From contig PXQR01000008.1 of assembly GCA_003021235.1 (NCBI GenBank), positions 1 through 56,977 of the forward strand: 56,977 bases of DNA. Reading direction: 5' to 3'. The position numbers were made by a program, and so were the translations under genes. Under the pieces are notes generated by a model. It had not been told where the DNA came from and searched no databases. It saw only the letters and a list, made by a program, of their open reading frames with translations. The stretch's first letter is position 1. Every line of letters begins with the position of its first letter. Of the stretch, positions 31,589-33,377 are shown piece by piece. The DNA is from Halobacteriales archaeon QH_6_64_20. GTDB lineage: Archaea > Halobacteriota > Halobacteria > Halobacteriales > Halococcaceae.

Positions 31589-33296
31589 ATGGACTTGGAG
31601 GACTACTGGGGGATCGGGCCGAAGACTCGGGCTCGGCTCGAAGAAAGCTTGGGTATCGAGCGCGCGATCGAGGCGATCGAAACCGCCGACGTCCCCGCAC
31701 TTACCGGTGCGGGCCTAGCCCGCGGTCGAGCGACGCGCGTGCTTCGACATGCCCACGGCGAGGCCGGCATGGACCTGCTTACGACCGCGGACACCCGCCG
31801 GGTCTATAAGGACCTCATCGACCGACTGGCCGAACACGCCGTCACGGACGAGGCCGCGGACCGAATCAGGGTGCTGACGCCGCTCGCCGCCGCCGACGCC
31901 ACGGAGGCGCGCCTCGACGAGGTCTCGCTCGCCCGGGAGACCTGGGAGCACCTCGACGAATCGACCCGCGGGGAAGTACTCGACGTCTTCGGGACCTACG
32001 ACGAGACCGGCGGCGGCGAACGGGCGGCCGTCGAGGCGGCACTGGCCCTCGACGACGTCGGCGTGAGTACTGGCGTGTTCGGACCCGTCGCCGACCTCGA
32101 TCGCGACGCGCTCGCGGCGGCCCGTGAGGCGCTTCGGTACCTCGACGGCGAGCGAGTTCTCGACGGAGCGGACGCCGAACTCGACGATATCAGGGAGCGA
32201 CTCGACGCGATCGAACGTCTCGAATCCGGCGGGATCGACGTTCTCGACGCCGTCCAGTCCGGCGACCTCCGGACGACCGCGGAGTTTCGCGAGGCCTTCG
32301 TCGAGTACGTGACCACTGAAACCGACGCGTCGCCCGCCCGCGTTCGGGGCGCCGTACCCTCCGAAGCGACCGACGCCGCGGACTTCGTGAGCGAGGGGCT
32401 ACGTGCGCTCGACACGGACCTGCGCGACGCGGCCGCCGAGCGCGAGGAGGAGGTACGGACCGATCTGGAAGAATCGATCGCCGGCGCCCGCGAGGAGGTA
32501 GATGCCGCCGTCGCCACGCTTCGCGACGTCACGCTCTCGCTCTCGCTGGCGCGCTTCGCGGCGGCCTACGACCTCGTTCGCCCGACGTTCGTCGACCGGG
32601 AGTGCCTGGCGATCGCTGGGGCGCGGAACCTCGCGCTCGCCGCGAGCGGTGATGATAGTAACGACCTACAGCCGGTCACGTACGCGATCGGCGATCACGC
32701 CCTCGCTTCCGGGAAGACCGACCTCGCAGTCGACGTGCCCTCGGGCGATCGGGTCACCGTGCTCACCGGCGCGAACAGCGGCGGGAAGACGACCCTGCTC
32801 GAAACGCTCTGTCAGGTCGTGTTGCTTGCACACATGGGCCTTCCCGTCCCCGCTGACGAAGTACAGCTCGGACGGTTCGACGCAGTGGTCTTTCACCGCC
32901 GGCACGCGAGTTTCAACGCCGGCGTGCGACGAGTTCGAGGCGATCACCGAACCCGGGAGCGCGGCGAATCTGCTTCACGGTCTCGTGGGGCTGTCGGTCG
33001 AAACGGGTGCGCTCGGGGTGTTCGTCACCCACCTCGCCGGGGACTTAGAACCGCTTCCGGACCGGGCCCGAACGGACGGTATCTTCGCTCGTGGGCTCGA
33101 CGACGATCTGTCGCTCGACGTCGACTACCAGCCCCGTTTCGACAGCGTCGGCCGGTCGACCCCCGAGTTCATCGTCTCGCGCCTGGTGGCGAACGCCACG
33201 AGTCGGTCCGAACGCGCCGGGTTCGACGCCCTTGCGAGCGCCGTCGGCCAGGAGGCCGTCCAGCGCACGCTGTCGGACGTCGAGTGGTCGGCCTGA
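31589..33296 (+). pseudogene. MutS-family HhH ATPase, frameshifted at Walker B
   Basis: The first frame (ATG 31589 to about 32926) encodes an N-terminal helix-hairpin-helix (YWGIGPKTRARLEESLGIE), a long helical clamp-like region, then the Walker A TGANSGGKTTLLETL and VVFHRRHASFNAGV. Reading continues only in the +1 frame from 32928: DEFEAITEPGSAANLLHGLV, LGVFVTHLAGDLEPLPDRA and STPEFIVSRLVANATSR, ending at 33296. In MutS-type ATPases about 20 residues, including the hydrophobic Walker B strand, separate the signature (ASFNAG) from DE. Here that interval is gone, so a small deletion both removes Walker B and shifts the frame. Assembly error is the alternative. The intact relative would be a MutS2-like haloarchaeal DNA-binding ATPase. 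Confidence 0.8.
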
Positions 33297-33377
33297 ACCC
33301 TAAAGGAGTTTATAACTGTTCCGGGGCGTCGAGAGAGTGACCGTTGTGTTCCGGCTCAGTGCCCGGCCGATAGCTCG

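Follow-up and report, generated by a model that had tools for sequence, protein, structure and literature searches.

Archaeal MutS5 proteins are described as ATPases of about 580–600 amino acids that are distinct from MutS1 and occur as several paralogues per haloarchaeal genome. Haloferax volcanii has two MutS1 and two MutS5 proteins, and the MutS5 group is stated to be uninvolved in mismatch repair (PMC7776575). Both mutS5a and mutS5b are listed among the single-gene deletion mutants of this species, in which only radA and radB could not be deleted (PMC11276520). MutS5 of Pyrococcus binds Holliday junctions, according to a citation given in PMC11276520, and a role at DNA junctions or in recombination is presumed for the haloarchaeal proteins (PMC7776575, PMC11276520).

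The window, that is, the whole stretch of 56,977 nucleotides analysed here (contig PXQR01000008.1 of Halobacteriales archaeon QH_6_64_20), carries at 31589–33296 of the plus strand a gene of this type. Like H. volcanii MutS5a (HVO_0191) and MutS5b (HVO_1354), its protein belongs to the MutS superfamily of ATPases, lacks the mismatch-recognition architecture of MutS1 and has a size of about 580–600 residues; as in other haloarchaea, it is accompanied by paralogues, the same assembly having MutS5-like copies on contigs C2 and C20. Unlike its two H. volcanii counterparts, the ATPase of the window is interrupted by a 65-bp deletion. The gene was filed as MutS5-type from its architecture and the literature description.

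Profile scores place the gene in the superfamily and below the MutS1 and MutS2 equivalog cut-offs. The Pfam MutS_V profile (PF00488) matches the N-terminal part with 30.6 bits, barely above the cut-off of 30.2, and a weak IMS_HHH match at residues 1–23 stays below its own cut-off. The ATPase domain is homologous to that of the MutS1/MSH mismatch-repair proteins; the MutS1 equivalog cut-offs are nevertheless missed by far, and separate MutS1-type genes lie on contigs C43 and C55. The order Walker A, signature, helix, strand and DE is shared with bacterial MutS2, two structures of which (7vuf and 9kce) score highest with the ATPase profile among those solved, whereas the NCBIfam mutS2 equivalog (TIGR01069) gives 63.1 bits, on the N-terminal part only, instead of the 400 required. 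The best NCBIfam match of 31589–32926 is KamC, the MutS-related reactivase ATPase of lysine 5,6-aminomutase, at 75.8 bits against a cut-off of 300.

Reading frames and the missing segment

In the open reading frames of the window, frame 1 of the gene opens at the ATG at 31589 (MDLEDYWGIGPKT) and remains homologous to intact relatives over 446 codons (31589–32926), which comprise an HhH-like N-terminus, a helical middle, a Walker A motif (GANSGGKTT, 32768–32794) that aligns with the Walker A of solved MutS2 and MSH3 structures, and the signature loop, whose final residues in the original frame are HASFNAGV (32903–32926, from the orthologue alignment). Halobacteriales archaeon QH_8_64_26 has an intact orthologue, with which residues 1–446 share 73% identity. 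The homologous reading continues in the +1 frame at 32928–33296, where 122 codons (DEFEAITEPG...VEWSA) with 86–90% identity to close orthologues, beginning DEFEAITEPGSAAN and ending LSDVEWSA, lead to a TGA stop at 33294–33296. A single C separates the valine codon that ends at 32926 from the aspartate codon at 32928–32930. Frame 1 itself stays open beyond this point as an out-of-frame tail of 137 Arg-rich residues (32927–33340, stop at 33338–33340), and the product read from 31589 is 583 amino acids long, nonsense tail included. Gene calling here would yield a protein of at least 583 amino acids, and the tail, open in GC-rich DNA, would hide the break. Both halves match one continuous orthologue of 596 codons, with 73% identity (E = 6e-191) and 86% identity (E = 4e-65), and the two matches are colinear and abutting; the split match is not due to chance.

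To collect orthologues, 60 relatives were searched in all six frames and GTDB contigs were scanned; those obtained show 51–74% identity and are 584–600 amino acids long. Apart from that of the window, 33 distinct orthologous loci were aligned, and in every one exactly 22 residues lie between the positions corresponding to V446 and the aspartate (for example LESTLRTVVPPLTESERTLMLV). Compared with its two closest relatives, the congeneric QH_8_64_26 (G003) and G001, the window is short by exactly 65 bp, i.e. 22 codons minus one base (65 mod 3 = 2). The missing bases belong between 32926 and 32927 (junction 32926–32928), a placement that is ambiguous by one base pair, the C at 32927. A 90-bp query spanning the junction matches G001 and G003 only in two pieces, 65 bp apart, while a search of another congeneric genome, G002, with the junction region returned matches to paralogues only. 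On either side of the gene, G001 and G003 are colinear with the contig, and neighbouring genes and start codon context are kept.

The nature of the lost segment was derived from a profile alignment of the ATPase domain to the MutS2 structures, on which its placement rests; an AlphaFold model of the intact orthologue, with only six usable sequences and a pLDDT below 50 in the ATPase part, was not relied on. In 7vuf and 9kce the segment aligns just before the Walker B sequence LVLIDE/LVILDE, so that it consists of the helix following the signature plus the hydrophobic Walker B strand, LMLV included. The acidic DE pair survives in the +1 frame, but the window gene, unlike intact orthologues, does not combine Walker A in one frame with a complete Walker B strand and DE; the paralogues of the same genome retain the residues corresponding to the lost segment. 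Translation past the deletion would run out of frame for 137 residues, giving a 583-residue product with its HhH and Walker A parts but without the Walker B strand, an in-register DE, the H-loop and the C-terminus. From what is known of this fold, such a product should be unable to hydrolyse ATP, and the deletion is expected to abolish function. As assembled, the gene carries a disabling lesion relative to its intact orthologues.

An earlier note on this DNA had described a MutS-family ATPase gene that reads in its first frame through Walker A to HASFNAGV, which both the PF00488 score with GANSGGKTT and the orthologue alignment bear out. The alignment to intact haloarchaeal proteins that it proposed refines the rest: the reading does resume in the +1 frame, though at 32928 and not at 32926; a helix and strand are indeed missing, the approximate 20 residues becoming exactly 22; and a single small deletion accounts for the frame shift as well as for the loss of the hydrophobic Walker B strand, while the DE pair remains in the other frame.

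Losses of the gene in related haloarchaea

Among the 18 genomes of the window's GTDB family, the orthologue is full length in nine, split in one (that of the window) and reduced in one (G005, locus L051) to an eroded remnant that has no match to the ATPase; in the remaining seven, five of which are 94–99% complete, it was undetected and only paralogues were found. G016, a member of the same family, has two full-length copies of the orthologue (on its contigs C26 and C76), compared with none detected in those seven. Two further breaks are independent of that in the window. In G046 (99% complete, 10 contigs; L049) a short frame break precedes Walker A, and in the fragmentary G035 (63% complete; L052) a gap of about 39 residues in the N-terminal part is accompanied by a change of frame. 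A two-piece match in G058 turned out on inspection to be an intact gene with an extra loop. The MutS5-type gene is evidently dispensable in this clade and has been lost repeatedly. By itself, the window gene adds a further disabled example of a repair or recombination ATPase that is poorly understood; as a probable natural loss of MutS5 caught at its first step, it is mildly useful and bears on the dispensability of this protein.

Contig C20 of this assembly also bears a divergent MutS5-like copy (740–960, L041), which lacks about 139 bp relative to the C2 copy and is out of frame; its gap sits between the HhH part, read in frame 1 from 769, and the remainder, read in frame 3 from about 870. 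It is the intact C2 copy that is truly orthologous to the copy of G001.

Deletion in the organism or in the assembly

The preferred reading, to which I give a probability of about 0.7, is that a non-essential haloarchaeal gene for a MutS5-type ATPase has recently become a null allele in the window, a young pseudogene of an ordinary kind, and that this allele exists in the organism. The break would stem from a single 65-bp deletion with almost no homology at its junction, possibly by end joining, a microhomology-type event or a replication error. Slippage between direct repeats was considered and rejected, the longest word shared by the breakpoints in the relatives being 6 bp and recombination there predicting a different junction.

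To estimate the age of the lesion, each half was compared with L002 and L003 by the Nei-Gojobori method. The dN/dS ratios were 0.25/0.25 for the N-terminal part and 0.13/0.11 for the C-terminal part, with 0.17/0.07 for the intact pair as comparison. The C-terminal part has no substitution at columns that are invariant among the other orthologues, and no second lesion was seen in either half when compared with orthologues. Both halves being constrained and free of further damage, the event is either very recent or restricted to the assembly; the part beyond the lesion looks no less constrained than intact genes are. The view of the earlier note that both sides look intact agrees with these ratios, as does a recent event, one of the three origins that it named.

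The same constraint and the want of a second lesion are what an assembly error would leave, and such an error is the only serious competitor, unlikely but far from negligible: in a metagenome assembly, the two sides could have been joined by a badly closed gap or along a read path that is chimeric or stems from a rare variant, with the gene intact in most cells. The draft is indeed fragmented, with 152 contigs and 90% completeness, a MAG scaffold is the closest relative that bears a name, and similar clean out-of-frame gaps occur in the C20 copy and in the G035 orthologue; the second out-of-frame deletion, in C20, could reflect a habit of the assembly as well as relaxed constraint. The junction itself argues otherwise. 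By comparison with G003 and G001 it shows 1 bp of microhomology, and because the repeats at the breakpoints are no longer than 6 bp, a collapse of k-mers is excluded and the junction should have existed in the reads. That these two genomes are colinear with the contig on both flanks also speaks against misassembly. In a survey of about 81 orthologous genes over 390 kb of the assembly, the window gene was the only convincing internal break, and the remaining 80 or so were unbroken; two other split candidates were spurious, consisting of upstream-extension or antisense ORFs. A search of the same assembly for another, intact copy of the orthologue of 31589–33296 found none, the other MutS_V genes being paralogues. 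With the 1-bp junction repeat, the roughly 80 unbroken genes and the recurrent, independent losses in the clade, the balance tips towards a real deletion.

The null allele might be part of a broader pattern. Selection on haloarchaeal MutS5 could be intermittent or strain-specific, with small deletions switching the genes off time and again, in this genome perhaps two of the three of MutS5 type, and with natural populations cycling between proficiency and deficiency for MutS5. This extension of the null-allele reading is speculative and I consider it rather improbable; if true, the cycling would affect recombination or gene conversion.

Two readings that grant the disrupted gene a function are much weaker still. 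In the first, the truncated product, made up of the HhH part, the helical domain and Walker A, would be kept as a DNA-binding protein or dominant regulator without ATPase activity, which would fit its lesion-free N-terminal part and the preserved start codon context and neighbours. However, its frame enters 137 random Arg-rich residues, no relative has a matching shortened form, and the intact conservation of the C-terminal part implies that this part was functional until very recently, all of which makes retention highly implausible. The second, a programmed +1 frameshift at 32926–32928 yielding one functional protein, had been put forward in the earlier note and could draw on the conservation of both frames and their abutment with a single base between them; it is rejected, with hardly any residual probability, because a +1 shift gives SFNAGV-DEFEA, still without the 22 residues that make up the helix and the strand of Walker B and are present in the paralogues and in every orthologue aligned, so that no frame completes the protein. 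Recency explains the conservation of the 3' part equally well, and the close relatives have the MutS5-type gene intact in a single frame.
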